NCBI GenBank assembly: GCA_024220525.1
Contig: JAMYWO010000332.1
Coordinates: 18,022 to 39,764, forward strand
DNA: 21,743 nucleotides
Direction: 5' to 3'
DNA from: Cochliopodium minus
Taxonomy: Eukaryota; Discosea; Himatismenida; Cochliopodiidae
Positions 573 to 21,743 of this stretch are shown here, in pieces; the first letter of the stretch is position 1; each line of letters opens with the position of its first letter. Made by a program: the position numbers and the translations under genes. The notes beneath the pieces are model-generated. The model had not been told where the DNA came from and made no database searches. It saw only the letters and a program-made list of their open reading frames with translations.

Positions 573-1051
573 ATGGGAATCAGCCGTGATAGCAAGCACA
601 AAAGAAGAAAAACTGGAGGTCGTCGTGAAAAATATATGAAAAAGAGGTATGTTTAATTCTTTCAATACCTGTAAATAGAAAATGAATATTGATATAAAAT
701 TTAATATAATAACATGAAAATTTTGAAATATTTTTATAATGATGAATTAAATTGTAATAAATAACACATTAACTAAAAATATTTTCAATATAATGAATAA
801 AGAAAACATTGTTTGGGACGCCCACCAGCAATGACCAAAATTGGAGGAAGAAGAGTCCATCTTGTTAGAGCAAGAGGAGGAAACTTAAAATTTAGAGCTC
901 TTCGTCTTGAAACTGGAAATTTTTCTTGGTCTTCTGAATGTATTGCTAGAAAAACCCGTATTCTTCAAGTAGTTTATAATGCATCAAATAACGAATTGGT
1001 CAGAACCAATACACTTGTAAAGGGATGTATTGTGCAAATTGATGCGCATCC
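573..1051 (+). CDS. RPS8: 40S ribosomal protein S8 (eS8), 3' end missing
   Basis: Structural protein of the small cytosolic ribosomal subunit. Exon 1 is 573-646, opening with [16 protein letters not shown]; the intron is 647-802 (GT...AG). Exon 2 is 803-1051, with the eS8 blocks [28 protein letters not shown] and [17 protein letters not shown]. The join is phase 2 and restores the family's Lys/Arg stretch. Homology stops at codon 108 (CCN, Pro) exactly at the single N at 1052. The next ~100 residues usual for eS8, including the expected YRQWYESHY-like block, are absent in all three frames after the N. What follows belongs to another gene on the opposite strand, so the gene is cut by an assembly gap. 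A short frame continuing from 1053 to a stop near 1121 is not eS8. Confidence 0.95.
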
Positions 1052-1052
1052 N
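1052..1052. other. Single ambiguous base (N) marking a gap or join between two broken genes
   Basis: The only non-ACGT base in the window. Plus-strand RPS8 homology ends at 1051 and minus-strand ABCG homology begins at 1053. Both genes lack their 3' ends here. The N therefore probably stands for a gap of unknown length, or for a scaffold join made without true overlap. Confidence 0.85.
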
Positions 1053-1837
1053 CACAATCAGGCCCAAGTCGAATGTCTTCACCAGAATGGAAATGGAAAC
1101 TCCGAAAACTATTTTTTATAAAAAAAAAATGGAAATTAAATGTAAAAATTTTAAATTTTAAATTTTTTTAATTTTTTTAATTTTTTTAATTTTTTTAATT
1201 TTTTTATTTTTTTATTTTTTTATTTTATTTTTTAAATTTTTTAATTTTTTAATTTTTTTAATTTTTTTAATTTTTGAATTTTTACCAGTTGCAAAATGCA
1301 TTACCAACATCAAGGCACAACAAAAAATGAAGAATTTTCCAGGATCACTTCTCAACCCCACCAACCAATAAATAATAAAGCCGTAGATAAAAGCTAAAAA
1401 ATAACAAATAATAAGTAAATAAAAATAAAAAATAAAAAATAAAAAATAAAAAATAAAAAATAAACAATAAAAAATAAAAAATAAAAATAAAAATAAGAAA
1501 TAAAAAATCAAAAATTAAAAATAAAAAATAAAAAATAAAAAATAAAAAATAAAAAATAAAAAATAAAAAATAATAATAAATAAATAAATAAATAAATAAA
1601 TCAGATTTGAAAAATGAAAAATAATATATAATTGTTAATAGTGAAAAAATAATTTAATAAATTAAATAAAATAAAATAAAATTACGAGATATAATCTGCA
1701 TTGGAATTCCCATTGTAAACTTTGAAAAATAATAGGCTAGCAAACCGTACCACCCTCCCGTTTTTTCTCTGAGGAACAAGTGTCTTTCGTTGGGAAATGC
1801 AAATAGCTCTCCCATCATGGTTGGGAATATGAAGTTA
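1053..1837 (-). CDS. ABCG-type (White/WBC) ABC transporter, three exons of the transmembrane part only
   Basis: Membrane exporter of the ABCG half-transporter family, seen only in its transmembrane domain. Minus-strand exons are 1837-1686, 1393-1286 and 1108-1053, joined in phases 1 and 1. Exon a carries the family pattern FPNERHLFLREKTGGWYGL followed by LAYYFSKFTMGIPMQ; exon b carries FIYGFIIYWLVGLRSDPGKF; exon c begins VFGVSISILVKTFDLG. These match the ABCG block 'FP.ER..F.RE....Y...AY...K....P', then the YW..GL segment and the following membrane helix. The ATPase domain (Walker A, signature, Walker B) and the first membrane helices should lie above 1837, but only AT repeats and then a kelch gene on the other strand are there. 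The 3' end is cut at the N (1052). Either it is a fragment or both joins are assembly errors. Confidence 0.85.
1140..1276. repeat. Low-complexity AT tract in ABCG intron
   Basis: Repeated units of AATTTTTTT/TTTTTTTA fill most of the intron 1109-1285. Similar tracts (AATAAAAAT type) occupy 1425-1600 in the next intron. They hold no gene. Confidence 0.85.
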
Positions 1838-6254: not shown

Positions 6255-7305
6255 TTAATTTTTAAAGTAATTAAGTTTCAAAAAATCAAAGAAACCATTG
6301 ATATCTTGAAGATAATCATTCCAAATGCTTTTATCTTCTTGTCTATCAACGTAAGAAGAAAAGTGAATCTTAAGATTGAAAAAGCCCGCAAAAAGCTCCA
6401 ACAAATCCTCACGTGACAAGGTATCAGTGTCCAAACCAAGTTTGTAAGGTAGGATATCTGTGAAAATGTACTCTGTTGGTACATTCTTGTCCAAAGTACA
6501 CAATTGGATGAGATCTTTTGCAAACAAGACCATATCATGCACTGAAAAGCAATTGTCCGTAACATTTGTCACTTGATGATAATATCCGGAAGGTATTATA
6601 ACCAATTGACCTTCTGAAACATATGCAACCTTTATGTTGAAATTATTGAAAAAATGGATTTAAAGACATCATCAAAATTTGTTTGATGGAATTGGGTAGA
6701 TATGTCTTTGACAATGATTAAAGATGATTGATCTCATTTTATTGAAAATAAACGAATTTCTTTACCTCACCACCACAATAGCAAATATCTTGGGCTAATT
6801 TATCCTTGATCTCGAGATCAAACCACATCTCCTTGAAATCCCCAAATTTTTCTTCCAACTCTGTCTTTTTGTCAGGAGGAAATAAAATGATCCTCTTCGT
6901 ACCACTGAAAACATAAAACCAAGCAAAACCCAAGGGATTATCATCGTGAATGATACCATGTGTAGATTTACCTCCCAAAAATAGAGATTGCATAAGGCTT
7001 GCACTTTTCGTATTGTACCAATTTCGTTTGAAAATGTGAGGATATTTCAACATCTTTTTGTTTTCCAACCTTTCTATCTCTCTTAAGTAGATTTCTGTGC
7101 AATAGAGTAAAGGATTCTCCTCTTGTTGAATGAAAAATTCTTCCACCAAAACCCTTTCTTTTTGTATCTGTTGATCCACTATCCTTTCTTTGGAAGATAG
7201 ATCCAATAATGTGCAATTTAATTCTTTGCTATGTTCTATTTGTATAAAATTTATTGAAATCGATTGAAAAATAGTCTTTTTTTCCATTAAATTTGTCCAT
7301 TTCAT
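6255..7305 (-). CDS. JmjC-domain (cupin-8) Fe(II)/2-oxoglutarate oxygenase
   Basis: Probable protein hydroxylase or demethylase of the JmjC family. Two exons (7305-6766 and 6629-6255) with a phase-0 join through CYCGGE|VAYVSEG encode 304 aa. The metal-binding triad is complete: His120-Asp121-Asp122 in STHGIIHDD (HxD) and His198 in PSGYYHQVTN. Lys137 in FSGTKRIILFPP fits the 2-oxoglutarate-binding residue after the 'G.K...L.PP' turn. The layout (short N-terminal helical part, JmjC core at ~95-215, helical C-terminus) is like small JmjC enzymes of the JMJD4/JMJD6/JMJD7 type rather than the large multi-domain histone demethylases. I cannot name the substrate. The start ATG lies 26 bp from a repeat shared with the RPS8 upstream region, so that repeat may be part of its promoter or 5' UTR. 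Confidence 0.88.
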
Positions 7306-7330
7306 TTTAAAATGTGATATTTTTATAAAA

Positions 7331-7477
7331 ATTACAAAAATCTTGAATTATTCGAAATTTCTTAGCATCAAATTTTTGAGTTCTGTTTATATCAGATCAT
7401 TTCAAGTATAATCCTTTAAATCATGGTGATTAATGTATAATTGAAATCACTTTATCTTTATAATGCATTCAAATGAT
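7331..7477 (-). repeat. Diverged ~145-bp repeat, copy 2 (upstream of the JmjC gene)
   Basis: On the minus strand this reads in the same direction as copy 1 at 206-345. In both cases a gene (JmjC here, RPS8 there) lies downstream in the same orientation. It keeps the 7-bp outer pair and the 5-bp hairpin with a 3-base loop seen in copy 1, and differs mainly by single substitutions and one short insertion. The intergenic stretch around it (7306-7596) shows nothing else I can name. Confidence 0.75.
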
Positions 7478-15757: not shown

Positions 15758-17897
15758 ATGAAAAGCATTATCAAGTAAGAAATATATTTGAAAGCGATAC
15801 TTCTATTTTATTAAGATTTTAACTTTCTCAGATATAACAAAATTAAATCGAATAACATAAAGAGATATTTCGGAACCACAAGCATAAAATTCAATCCAAA
15901 ATTGAGCTCTCAACAGATCATCGAGAGGGAGGGAAAATATGCAGCACATACTTATCATTCTCTCGATGTTGTATGGTCCAAAGCATCTGGATGCACAGTA
16001 TGGGATCCAGAAGGAAACAAATATTTGGATTTCTTGGCTGGTTAATTTAATTTTTAAATTCTTCCAAATTAAATTTTCACTTTTTTACTTTTTTACTGAT
16101 TTTTTATCAGGTTACAGTGCATCCAATCAAGGACATTGCCATCCTAGATTAATTAAAGCTCTAACTGATCAAGCGAATATCCTCGATATGTCTTCAAGAG
16201 CATTTTATTCAGATAAATTCGGCGAATATGCAGAATTTGTAACAAAATATTTTGGCTATGAATCTGTTTTGCCAATGAATACAGGTGAATAAAATAACCT
16301 TAATCAATCTAATATCATTTTCTCAAAAAAAAAAAAGGTGCCGAAGGAGTGGAAGCTTCTATGAAATTGGCAAGAAAATGGGGATATGTGAAAAAAAAAA
16401 TTCCTGAAGATCAAGGTCAAAAAAGAAAAGAATTAGACTTTTTTCTAATCTATTTTTTATTTATTTTTTAATCTCACTTTATTCTCATTTTTTATTATTA
16501 ATTTCCTATCTATATAGGTATTATAATCACCTTCACCGAAAATTTCCATGGGAGAACAATTACCATCATCTCTGTATCAACCGATCCTGAAGCATATACA
16601 AATTTTGGGTGAGGATAATATTTCAAAATCCTTTTTTTAAAATTTTAATTATCAATGTTAATTTTATATTATTGTTACATCATTTTTTTTTTGGCAGACC
16701 TAAAACTGGAGGGTTTGTTACACTTCCCTACAACGACATCAAGGCCTTGGAAAATTACTTGAACGAAAATGGAAAACGTGTCTCTGGTCTCTTGATTGAG
16801 CCCATTCAAGGTGAGGCTGGCATCAAAATTCCAGATGATGGTATCTTTTTTTTTCTCATAATCTTTTTTCTCATATTTTTTTATTAATATTTCATTTTTA
16901 ATAATTTGGCTTTTTAATTTGAAAAAATTAGGATATCTTAAGGGAGTTTCTGCTCTTTGCAAAAAACACAATGTTCTTTTCATTGCAGATGAAATTCAAT
17001 CTGGTTTAGGAAGAGCTGGTTAGTTTATTATTTCAAAAATTACCAAATTTTTTATTTTTATTTTTGTTTCAATTTGAATTTATTTTATTTTAATTTATTG
17101 TAATTCTAATTTTTTTTTATACAGGAAAATTGTTAGCTGTAAATTATGATAATGTTAGACCAGACGTTTTGGTATTGGGAAAAGCATTGTCAGGAGGTAT
17201 GTTTCCAGTCAGTGCTATTCTTGCAGATTGGAACATCATGGACAGCATCCAACCTGGTCAACATGTAATTTATTCTACGTTTCAAATAAAAAGAATTATT
17301 TTCACTATCTTCATTCATTGTCTTCATTATCATTATTTTCATTATCTTCATTATCATTATTTTCATTATCTTCTTTTAGTATCATTATTTTCTTCTTTAA
17401 TTTTTACTAAAGGGTTCTACTTATGGTGGACATCCTATTGGATGTGCCGTTGCTATTGAGGCTCTCAAAATAATCAAAGAAGAGGGGCTTGTTGAGAATG
17501 TAACCTTTTTTTTATGATTGAACCAAAGGAATAATTACTTATTTTCAAAAATTATTTCTTTTAAAACTTTGATATTTCTTTACTCAAAGTAAATTTTTTT
17601 TATTCTTCTTAATTCTTTTAGTCTTACGAAATGGGAAAATACTTTAGAGATTCAATTTCTTCCATTAAAAGTCCTCTCATTAAGCAAATAAGGGGGAGAG
17701 GTCTTATGAACGCCATCGAAATTCATGAAGATTCCAAAGTTCCTGCTTGGGATATTTGTTTAAAATTTAGGGACAATGGTTTGCTTGCAAAGCCCACTCA
17801 TGAAAACATCATTCGCATGACTCCTCCTTTGGTCATCACCAAAAAAGAAGTTGATCAATCTATTGATATCATCAACAATGTTTTCAAATCTTTATAA
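15758..17897 (+). CDS. OAT: Ornithine aminotransferase, mitochondrial
   Basis: PLP enzyme converting ornithine and 2-oxoglutarate to glutamate semialdehyde and glutamate, linking arginine and proline metabolism. Ten exons in phase: 15758-15774, 15832-16040, 16111-16284, 16338-16415, 16518-16608, 16698-16840, 16932-17018, 17125-17264, 17413-17499 and 17622-17897, 433 aa (human 439). Family blocks are [75 protein letters not shown] and [15 protein letters not shown]. The PLP-binding lysine is in [10 protein letters not shown] (about Lys286; human Lys292). The first ~25 residues, [19 protein letters not shown] then GTTS, are basic, lack acidic residues and fit a mitochondrial presequence; it is split after a 17-nt first exon. 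Donors at 16041 (GTTAAT) and 17019 (GTTAGT) depart from the GTA/GTG used elsewhere. The gene looks intact. Confidence 0.95.
17323..17370. repeat. Tandem 24-bp repeat in an OAT intron
   Basis: Two perfect head-to-tail copies (17323-17346 and 17347-17370) of a TTCATTATCATTATTTTC-type 24-mer within the intron 17265-17412, with degenerate units on both sides. The composition resembles the low-complexity coding tract of the transporter at 4370-4470. Confidence 0.85.
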
Positions 17898-17998: not shown

Positions 17999-18443
17999 AT
18001 GGCCAGAACAAAACAAACAGCTAGAAAGAGCACTGGTGGTAAATTAAGAAAATTTTATATTTTTTTTCTATAATTTTTACTTATATTAAAGGAAAGGCAC
18101 CAAGGAAAAGTAAGTTTATTTTTGACAAAATATTAACTTACTTTTAAATCAATAGGTAAAAAGAATCCAATTTTGATTCAATAATTAATATATTTTCAAA
18201 ATATAAAAAATAGTGAGGACATATGCTATGGATATACAAACACAAACAATAACTGCCAAATTAACACCCATAAAAATTCCAAAAGGGGTAGAATTTTTAT
18301 ATTGTAAATTAAAAATTAATTATTTTCTCCAGTATCAATCAAAAAAGGGAGGTGCTGATAAAATTTGTGATTTATCAATTTCCAGCTCAGAAGAAGAAAT
18401 AGAAATTAAAGAGAAAAAAGAGACCAAAAATAAAAAAAAATAA
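17999..18443 (+). CDS. Histone H3-tail mimic: 80-aa protein with exact H3 N-terminus and SIM-like motif, no histone fold
   Basis: Four exons keep phase: 17999-18038, 18092-18109, 18214-18287 and 18333-18443 (80 aa, TAA). Residues 1-19 are MARTKQTARKSTGGKAPRK, identical to canonical H3, so H3 K4, K9, S10, K14 and K18 equivalents are all present. Then the sequence leaves H3 (MRTYAMDIQTQTITAKL) and has none of the alpha-N or histone-fold blocks. The C-terminal half holds DKICDLSISSSEEEIEI (53-69): a hydrophobic/Asp-Leu core followed by Ser and Glu, like the SUMO-interacting motif of PIAS proteins (VIDLT then Ser/Asp/Glu). It ends in a Lys-rich tail, perhaps nuclear-localising. I infer a nuclear peptide that could be read or modified by H3-tail enzymes. 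It lies 102 bp downstream of OAT. An alternative acceptor at 18155 would give a 28-aa product ending NPILIQ. Confidence 0.72.
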
Positions 18444-18701: not shown

Positions 18702-21001
18702 TCAAATCATGAGAGAGTCTTGCAAAGATTCATTATTGTTTTTTTTGTTTTTTTGCTTGGAGATTTTTTGAGGAAGTTTTTTTTTGTTTGATTTTGTCTT
18801 TGATTTTTGTTTAGGAGGAGGAGAAGATTCTTGAAGAAAAGAAGATTGATCTTGGGGAGGGACAGAATACTCTTCTACTTGCATTTCACTGATGTTGTCA
18901 GAGAGCAAAGTAAAAGAAAGAGAATCAGATTCAAGATGATCTCCTTCTAACTGTAAGTTTCCATTGTTTATTAATTGAAGAGAAGCAACAAAAGTTCTTG
19001 CAATATCAAATGTTTCCATCCCTTTGACCAAGTTTTGAAAAGAAACTTTTTTTTTTTGATTCACTTTAAGCCTGGAAAGAATTTGAGAAGAATAATCTTT
19101 AATAACGAAAATAGGTCTTTCTTTTTGTCTTTGAATCAATGGTTCTAACTTGTTTCTCCAATTTGTTACTCTTTTAGACAATTCACTTTCTTGAATGTAA
19201 GAAGAAGCACTAGAAATATACTTTTCAATGTGTTCTCTGCACATTTTTTCATAAGAATCTACTCCTCCTTCTTCCTGTGTGTTAAAAGCTTTTTCAATGT
19301 CAGCGTATTGACCAACCTCCCTTTCTTCATTTGTTTTCCCTCCTTCTTCTCCTTGTGTGTTTAAAAAGAAAGGAATGGGAGCATGGGGATTATCCAAGTT
19401 GTTGTCTCTTCCTATCCCTTCATCTCCCTTTTCTCTTTCTTCTCCTAATCCCAACTCTATTCCCACCCCTTCTGAAGAATCATCATCACTTTCCTCTTCA
19501 TCGTCTTCTCCCTCCCTTCTTTCTCTTCTTTCTTCCCGCTCTCCTCCTTCTACCATGTATCTTACTTTATTGGTGGTACGTTTTGTAGAGGAAACAAGAG
19601 AAGTTTTGGGTTGAGAAAGATAAAGATAATCAAATTGAGAGAGAAGTGGTTTTTTAAAATTTTTGAAATTTATAAAATCATCAAAAGAAAGGAAATAAGA
19701 AGCATTTGTAATCTTTTTGGAACCATTTTTAGTTTTTGAAGAAGTTTTTTGAAAAGAAGTAGAAAGAGAATCTTCAAAACAAAAATCATTCTCTTTTTTT
19801 CTGTTTTGAGAAGTACTGGAAGAAGAAAGAAAAAAAGAAGAAAGAGGAGAAGATGGTTTTTTAGGGGGATGTTTAAAGGGTTTAAAAGGTTTTGCTTTTC
19901 CATTTTCTTGATGAGGATCAAGGGGATAAAGATAAGGATCATACACTTCTTCTTCTTCTACTTCTTCCCCTTCTACCATCCTTTCTACTCCTCCTTTGCT
20001 ACCAAAATTAGGAATAGGGAGAGAGGAACCAATCAAATTGGTAGCGGGGATGTTGTTATCATTGTTGGTTTCCTTAACTTTGTTGTTTTCTCTTCCATCT
20101 TTTTCATTATCATTTTCTTCATCACTATCTTCACTGCTTGCTGCTCCCAAATCAATTCCTATCCCTTCATTTTCTTGTGTTTTTTTGGATTGATGTGTTA
20201 TGATTTGTTCTTCTCCATTTTTTTTAAGAGCATTTCCAAACAATTGATTCCCATTTGTTTCCATCACGTTATATTCTTGAATGTTTGGGAAATTTGATTG
20301 GAAATCAAATCTATTATCCAATAATAATCCTCCACTTGGATCTATGAGACATTTATTTATCTATTTTTAAATTAAAATTAATGAAATTTGAAAATTGAAA
20401 AATCTTTTTACACAATAATCGGTTTGTTTTAAAAAGTTGGAAGAATGATTAAAGTTGTTTTGATTCATATTGGTGATGAGATGAAAAGAGGTATCAATAT
20501 TCAAGTTTTCCAAAATTAAATTATTCGATTGATTTTCATCTTCGACCAAATTTATATTCTTTCCCTCTATAAATAAAAAATAGAAAAAGATGAGTTACTT
20601 TAAATTTATTGTAAAGAATTACCTTTTAACTCAGTTTTTTTGAGAAAGATTTGATCATCTTCCTGATCTTGATTTCCAGAATCTTCTTCCTTGATATTAA
20701 TATTCTCTTTATCTGTATTATTCTTTTTTTCATTCATCTTTTGTTTATTTGCGAGGAATTCAAGGGTTTGATAAATCAATTTGTACAAAAATTCAACTTT
20801 TTTGCTATAAATATTTGCACTTGATTGAATTAATAAAGCAGCTTCTGCAAAATTTAGAGTATTCCCTTTCCCATCAAATGAAAATGATATCTTATCTAGA
20901 TCTTCCATATATTCTTCTAATTCTGATGCAAGATCAACATTCCAATTATCTGCTAAATCTTTTATAGGTTGTAATAAGTGAGCAAATTTATTTCCTTCCA
21001 T
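18702..21001 (-). CDS. NCAPH2: Condensin-II complex subunit H2 (kleisin)
   Basis: Kleisin that bridges the SMC2/SMC4 heads in condensin II, acting in mitotic chromosome shaping. Three exons (21001-20623, 20566-20412, 20360-18702) give 730 aa in phase (human 605). The N-terminal kleisin domain is very clear: [57 protein letters not shown] short [12 protein letters not shown] block follows. The middle is acidic and Ser-rich, with [21 protein letters not shown], then a conserved-looking [12 protein letters not shown]. The C-terminal winged-helix kleisin region has [20 protein letters not shown] and [20 protein letters not shown]. It ends in a Lys-rich tail. The acceptor at 20361 is set by phase (INKCLIDPS). 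The extra length comes from low-complexity insertions. This shows condensin II is present in this lineage. Confidence 0.94.
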
Positions 21002-21143: not shown

Positions 21144-21743
21144 TCACCAAGAACCACAACAATTATCTCCCTTTGATTGTTGTAAAAATATTTTGGAAGA
21201 TTCAGATAAATCTTCAGATTTAGAGATGACAGTATCCAATTTTTCCCCTCTATCCAATAATTGTTCTATTGATTTCACCATTGTTGATTGAACATCATTT
21301 AAATCATTTTGAATAGCACTAATATTATCTACTTTCTCTGGTTGTTGATAAGATACTATAAAAGAATCAATCTCTTGGCAAGTCATTGAATTAGGTGTTT
21401 GTATATCTTTCCATTTTTCACCATTTTGTTTGATGAAAGAATTTAATGATTTTTCAATCAAAGAAAAAGCTATTCTATGATTATATTCTGAATCTGTTAT
21501 AACACAGCAAATCAATCCTTGAGAATTATGCTTACTATGGCAAATATATTCCTAATATTTCACAAAATTAAAATTTCTTTCAATTTTAGGCAAAAAAATA
21601 TAAAGTACATTTTGTTTGACAACGTTATCTTCTCCTATTTTGGTTCTTTTGGCAACAGTTCTTGAAAAAAAATTAATTAATTCTTCTATTGTTCCTCTTT
21701 TGAAATATGGGAAAGTAGATAATTCATTTTTTCTCAATAATAC
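21144..21743 (-). CDS. YKT6: YKT6 R-SNARE, main part (start lies at base 134 across the end join)
   Basis: Longin-type R-SNARE for ER-Golgi, vacuolar and autophagosome fusion. Exon 1 runs from 134 over the terminal overlap to 21609; the intron is 21608-21552; exon 2 is 21551-21144. The total is 199 aa. The intron removes an in-frame TAG and joins as VVKQN|EYICH, aligning with VKEQDYLCH of human YKT6. Exon 2 has NHRIAFSLIEKSL (longin end) and the SNARE helix with the zero-layer Arg in IEQLLDRGEKLD. The C-terminus is NCCGSW: two Cys in the positions that are palmitoylated and farnesylated in YKT6, but the CaaX box would be CGSW, with Gly/Ser instead of aliphatic residues and a terminal Trp, which is unusual for prenyl transferases. 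A spliced alternative 3' end is possible but not seen. Confidence 0.93.
21667..21743. repeat. 77-bp terminal direct repeat, right copy
   Basis: Exact copy of bases 1-77. Merging both copies yields a continuous YKT6 gene and a closed length of 21,666 bp, subject to the doubtful joins at 1052 and 1838-2052. Confidence 0.95.

Follow-up and report, generated by a model that had tools for sequence, protein, structure and literature searches.

SNAG-domain factors such as Snail and GFI1 carry N-terminal mimics of the histone H3 tail that bind LSD1 and have few residues in common with H3. Published reports describe ARKS-like short linear motifs in WIZ and LIG1 that are methylated by EHMT1/EHMT2 (PMC10611923), and chromatin proteins in which a tail-like segment competes with the real tail: the linker of BAZ2B, itself a target of poly(ADP-ribosyl)ation by PARP1 (PMC5663869), and the auto-inhibitory H3-mimic sequence of Swi6/HP1 (PMC7192584). 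The locus of Cochliopodium minus described here resembles the host H3K9-type mimics in that a non-histone protein carries a stretch treated as H3 (a candidate for such treatment in our case), but those mimics are short and built around a core of four residues (PMC10611923), whereas this protein has all of the first 18 residues of H3 at a true N terminus, coded over two exons. BAZ2B and Swi6/HP1 show a loose likeness and control in cis, whereas the identity here is exact and the protein that bears the tail has no known reader domain. Histone H3 variants have the same tail, but a histone fold was not found in the present protein. Among the papers listed by full-text searches of the open literature on H3-tail mimicry, on histone tails together with PARP, and on protist tail fusions, none was seen to describe such chimaeras.

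The window, i.e., the whole stretch of 21,743 nucleotides that was analyzed (C329:18022-39764), belongs to an AT-rich, intron-containing assembly of 44.65 Mb in 598 contigs. Within it, a gene on the plus strand appears, from the modelled exons, to make an H3-tail protein of 80 amino acids, its four exons being joined in frame to give 243 nt. Exon 1 (17999..18038) supplies the ATG and the H3 tail as far as the first nucleotide of the Gly13 codon (MARTKQTARKSTG), a peptide that also occurs in three full H3 genes, and is followed by intron 1 (18039..18091; GT...AAG, 53 nt). The 18-nt exon 2 (18092..18109) codes GKAPRK of the H3 tail, and a competing acceptor site lies before 18156 within intron 2 (18110..18213; 104 nt, GTAAGT...TAG). 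Exon 3 (18214..18287), the first codon of which is split by the join, codes the non-H3 sequence MRTYAMDIQTQTITAKLTPIKIPKG, for which no relative was found. After intron 3 (18288..18332), which is 45 nt long, in frame and without a stop, exon 4 (18333..18443) codes YQSKKGGADKICDLSISSSEEEIEIKEKKETKNKKK and the stop codon, with an acidic/Ser patch followed by a Lys-rich end. The earlier note had stated that four exon joins keep phase; the joins are indeed in frame, but there are three of them.

The contrast in G+C content between the exons (0.45, 0.44, 0.34, and 0.25) and the introns (0.09, 0.15, and 0.16) supports this gene model, and GT is present at all three donors. The odd acceptor of intron 1 (...TTAAAG) is matched by ...ACTAAAG at one of the four intron ends read in the neighboring aminotransferase gene. 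Coding potential was scored with a codon model derived from 7,290 nt of this genome, in 19 coding stretches, and compared with nucleotide shuffles. Exons 3 and 4 in frame outscored all but 0.2% of the shuffles and exon 4 alone all but 0.05%, while the score of exon 3 alone was reached by 19.5% of the shuffles and was not significant. The coding support for exons 3 and 4 is therefore modest, because the raw per-codon log-odds are about zero (-0.05) for the two together and negative (-0.34) for exon 3. Since intron 3 lacks a stop and preserves the frame, a 95-aa form in which it is kept is equally open, and splicing to the acceptor before 18156 would result in a protein of only 28 aa, made up of the tail and SKKNPILIQ. 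We consider it quite improbable that the model is wrong in the sense that the tail ends through the 18156 acceptor or is unjoined to exons 3 and 4, these being a separate open reading frame or non-coding; the usable AG before 18156, the optional in-frame intron 3 and the score of exon 3 speak for such an error, but exons 3 and 4 exceed their flanking introns in G+C and are in phase with the tail.

The gene is flanked on one side by an aminotransferase class-III gene (PF00202), the last frame of which ends at 17897, and on the other by a 552-residue frame on the minus strand (18702-20360), with the N-terminal domain of condensin II CAP-H2 (PF06278; 20606-21037, minus strand) farther out. Elsewhere in the window, the frame at 801-1121 (plus strand) resembles ribosomal protein S8, a cupin-like protein occurs at 6739-7347 (minus strand; Cupin_8 match below its cut-off), and a longin-synaptobrevin protein, Ykt6-like, occurs at 21144-21551 (minus strand).

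The first two exons (17999-18109) code MARTKQTARKSTGGKAPRK, i.e., 19 residues including Met, or A1-K18 in H3 numbering, all 19 of which are shared with the three full-length H3 genes found in this genome, a pair on C65 and a single gene on C24. The canonical tail over two exons that the earlier note had read from the sequence was thus confirmed, as was the presence of true H3 genes for which it had proposed to search. The protein has the conserved N-terminal tail of histone H3 and, within it, an H3-like motif including ARKS as in H3 histone mimics; the modifiable residues R2, T3, K4, R8, K9, S10, T11, K14, R17, and K18 are all in place. No histone fold was found, in agreement with the earlier reading: the Pfam search of the 80-aa protein returned zero matches, and none of the 12 matches listed in a genome search for the histone fold (PF00125) lies on C329. 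A join of exon 2 to a normal H3 core elsewhere, which would have made the present join an artefact, was rejected, since the three full-length H3 genes are all intronless and no fold match on C329 is among the 12 listed. A chance origin of the tail was also rejected, as about 3e-16 exact matches are expected under a uniform model.

At the DNA level, the tail differs from the C65 H3 genes at 14 of 57 nt (12 of 19 codons) and from the C24 H3 gene at 11 nt (10 of 19 codons). All of these differences are silent, an outcome obtained in 0 of 200,000 simulations of 14 random substitutions. Because the codon differences are silent throughout, the peptide seems to have been retained while the DNA drifted, and the window tail looks old because just 3 of these codons distinguish the C65 H3 genes from the one on C24. 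On this sequence evidence, selection on the tail peptide is probable, although the silent drift could predate the separation of the tail from a whole H3 gene. Three further histone-like genes were seen in the genome: a divergent H3 in two coding pieces with a non-canonical tail of its own (C182:3008-3547), perhaps a centromeric variant; an H4-like gene (C343:31038-31331) with a match that begins only at residue 6, as would be seen if the tail were interrupted by an intron following SGRG; and another divergent H4-like gene, split into two pieces (C381).

Genome-wide tail searches, made with H3 and H4, revealed further chimaeras. Protein searches with the H3 tail returned the three H3 genes, the window gene and loci on C247, C344, and C5, while canonical H4 as the query led to H4 genes and to a locus on C146. 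At least four genes beside the window gene thus carry H3 (C247, C5, and C344) or H4 (C146) tails, so the window gene is not a lone oddity; since each of the H3 searches scored only 8 candidates, the five carriers are a lower bound. Outside the genome, a profile of the H3 unit gave no confirmed match among 70 candidates from viral contigs and 76 from prokaryote genome contigs, sets to which protists do not belong.

The most elaborate of these chimaeras (C344:9952-16141, minus strand) is a PARP4-like gene followed by four successive exons, each with a GRTKQTA... unit; the four were recovered when a C344 unit was used as the query. BRCT, PARP_reg, PARP, VIT, and VWA domains all scored above the curated Pfam cut-offs on hand-joined exons, as in PARP4, the vault PARP, and the H3-tail-like exons are placed downstream of the VIT-VWA part. 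PARP4 is not otherwise known to carry H3 units such as these four. Two of them are complete (GRTKQTARKSTGGKAPRK) and another ends after STG; in the remaining unit, ARKS has become AGLS and GGKAPRK has become GGSAPLS, with the loss of R8, K9, K14, R17, and K18; with one unit degraded and one broken off after STG, not all units have been kept intact. The last two units share a near-identical intron-plus-exon stretch, which points to recent exon duplication. By eye, the ends of the unit exons fit phase 1, one of them only via a GC donor, and we infer from these joins that the units belong to the PARP4-like gene. Being internal, they are without a free N terminus and have GRTK instead of ARTK.

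A second PARP chimaera (C146:72627-74764, minus strand) begins with a perfect 21-residue H4 tail that is contiguous with a BRCT domain (4.6e-13), with no intron between them. An acidic stretch follows the BRCT domain, and a PARP catalytic match (46.6 bits) lies about 2 kb downstream in a later exon; the exon joins would place BRCT and PARP, as in BRCT-PARP proteins, in one gene with the tail. WGR and PARP_reg matches were also seen, both below their cut-offs. As in the window gene, the codons of the tail differ silently from those of whole histone genes: 4 of 21 and 3 of 21 differ from the two H4 genes compared, and all of the differences are silent. When histone tails were sought within about 1.5 kb of PARP catalytic matches, this H4 tail was the only strong match, a distance too short for units as remote as those of C344; weak STGGKAPRK matches near PARPs on C6 and C142 (26 and 27 of 47) were taken for chance. 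In addition, three separate PARP catalytic matches occur on the 12.5-kb contig C571.

On C247 (54638-56723, plus strand), the H3 tail MARTKQTARKSTGGTAPRK, in which K14 is replaced by T, runs without an intron into a 266-residue frame. The exon series ends in a PBZ finger (PF10283; 3.5e-14; 55 bits at C247:56636-56713), the domain of PBZ proteins, and would unite finger and tail in one gene; the preceding family member has the same layout with a terminal PBZ. The partner family, partly tandem, comprises at least 50 matching pieces including this one, many of them on C247, and gave no Pfam match outside the C-terminal PBZ finger. Four other starts of the family, as read, have N termini that differ from the H3 tail.

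The remaining chimaera (C5:301155-302300, plus strand) lies just downstream of another gene and has the H3 tail MARTKQTARKSTGG, of 13-15 residues according to the join chosen, followed by exons of an unclassified protein for which the Pfam search gave no match. Its exon joins are ambiguous, and the sequence allows an intron with the position and phase of intron 1 of the window gene (18039..18091); no histone core was found there. Such an arrangement would fit a shared intron-bearing H3 ancestor and with it the reading that the window tail is a relict, either of an old intron-bearing H3 gene that has lost its core or of a scattered 5' H3 fragment, inherited but jobless, the C5 copy being another such fragment. 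The C5 and C247 tails are near H3 in their DNA (5-8 of 57 nt differ), which also agrees with a relict, as do the coding scores of exon 3 alone and of exons 3 and 4 together. Nevertheless, we regard this reading as unlikely: all 19 residues of the window tail are intact despite 12 changed codons, the rest of its frame is open with a coding-like composition in exon 4, and a relict leaves unexplained both the four units in one PARP gene and the H4 tail on another PARP.

As the earlier note had suggested, the 61-residue remainder of the window protein (residues 20-80) appears unrelated to H3, and no relative of it was found in the sets searched. Pfam held none and the genome returned the locus itself; the searches outside the genome covered virus and prokaryote sets, phages, and the PDB, which do not address protist relatives. 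Among IMG/VR contigs, 0 of 16 candidate stretches were confirmed, phages yielded no relative, and the only PDB matches were to a pair of designed repeat proteins (E 0.2); in a second PDB search, the best 60 of 134 matches cover the tail.

The PIAS-type SUMO-interaction motif (SIM) that had been proposed for ICDLSISSSEEE did not hold up, since none of five SIM consensus patterns, including two variants of one form, matched it, and the protein does not group with SUMO-interacting proteins on these patterns. The sequence fits only a relaxed pattern that was written after it had been seen and that occurs in 1 of 20,000 shuffles; this match was not counted as evidence, and the SUMO link was dropped as an established fact. 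A more general possibility is that the window protein acts as a decoy or adaptor for whatever binds the H3 tail (COMPASS, acetyltransferases, PHD and HP1 readers), with the C-terminal part linking to SUMO and no tie to ADP-ribose. The full set of modifiable tail residues would suit this role, and ICDLSISSSEEE does resemble a PIAS-type SIM under the relaxed pattern, but the failure of all five patterns and the partners of the other tails, which indicate PARP and PBZ rather than SUMO, make it decidedly unlikely. The earlier interpretation as a whole is partly supported.

That note had not considered ADP-ribosylation, to which the four carriers other than the window gene point, three of them being PARP or PBZ proteins (two PARPs and one PBZ protein). 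Grouped by place, the 23 PARP and 23 PBZ matches of the genome represent about 18 and 19 places, respectively (about 37 in total), two of the PARP places having sub-cut-off matches only. Assuming 8,000-20,000 genes, the chance that at least three of four carriers are PARP or PBZ is 4e-7 to 2.5e-8, and that for at least three of five is 1e-6 to 6e-8, figures to be taken as orders of magnitude only because the category was chosen post hoc and gene families are not independent. Tails were found at only 2 of the 18 PARP places and 1 of the 19 PBZ places, where the other genes were read in part. For the window protein itself, the tie to ADP-ribose is one of association only, because it has no Pfam match. 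From the company of two PARPs and a PBZ protein, we infer that ADP-ribosylation is the shared theme, with the proteins being made and their tails modified or read, and ADP-ribose signalling appears to be a stronger lead for function than SUMO, indeed the strongest that these sequences offer.

In animals, HPF1 is the factor for serine ADP-ribosylation; a search for it gave no match here and none in the control genomes either, so its absence here carries no meaning. Human PARP1/HPF1 ADP-ribosylates H4S1 and also H3S10, which lies in a Lys-Ser context, and acetylation of H3K9 excludes ADP-ribosylation at H3S10 (PMC6172693). In Dictyostelium, the build-up of Ku at breaks is described as needing ADP-ribosylation of H3b at S10/S28 and as depending also on a PBZ domain, and the authors were unable to identify a homologue of HPF1 in this organism (PMC8758696). 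Both acceptor sites are present in the tails found here; the acceptor tail of the PARP1-HPF1 system sits on histones or nucleosomes (PMC6172693), whereas here the candidate acceptor is part of the PARP or PBZ protein.

We give about an even chance to the reading that the detached tails act in ADP-ribose signalling, as built-in acceptors or ligands of tail-modifying enzymes, PARPs in particular, and that the window protein is a free H3-tail carrier, the product of one of at least five genes with an H3 or H4 tail on a non-histone protein. After removal of its Met, the window protein would display A1-R2-T3-K4...K9-S10...K14...K18 just as the nucleosome does, and because the tail on display would be nucleosome-like, the H3-tail enzymes and readers of the cell should bind and modify the protein off chromatin. 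In the PARP and PBZ proteins with tails, the acceptor would be built in and accessible to the enzymes that write on H3 and H4. Within this set, the window protein would be the one member without a tether, either a soluble acceptor or a decoy in the ADP-ribose circuit. More tentatively, and at somewhat less than even likelihood, the detached H3 and H4 tails may be portable modules that have been mounted repeatedly on ADP-ribose writers, on a reader, and on small free carriers.

Histone mimicry in host proteins is otherwise known as short motifs; the presence, in a single genome, of complete and exact tails on several proteins unrelated to each other would take this idea to a different scale. 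If the portable-module reading is true, the enzymes of the histone code would act on the PARP machinery, and PARPs would bear their own histone-type acceptors. The bias of the carriers toward PARP and PBZ proteins predicts that acetylation of K9 and phosphorylation of S10 in the tail would switch the ADP-ribosylation of the carrier. Moreover, the tail chimaeras of this organism would part the function of the tail from that of the nucleosome in a natural setting.
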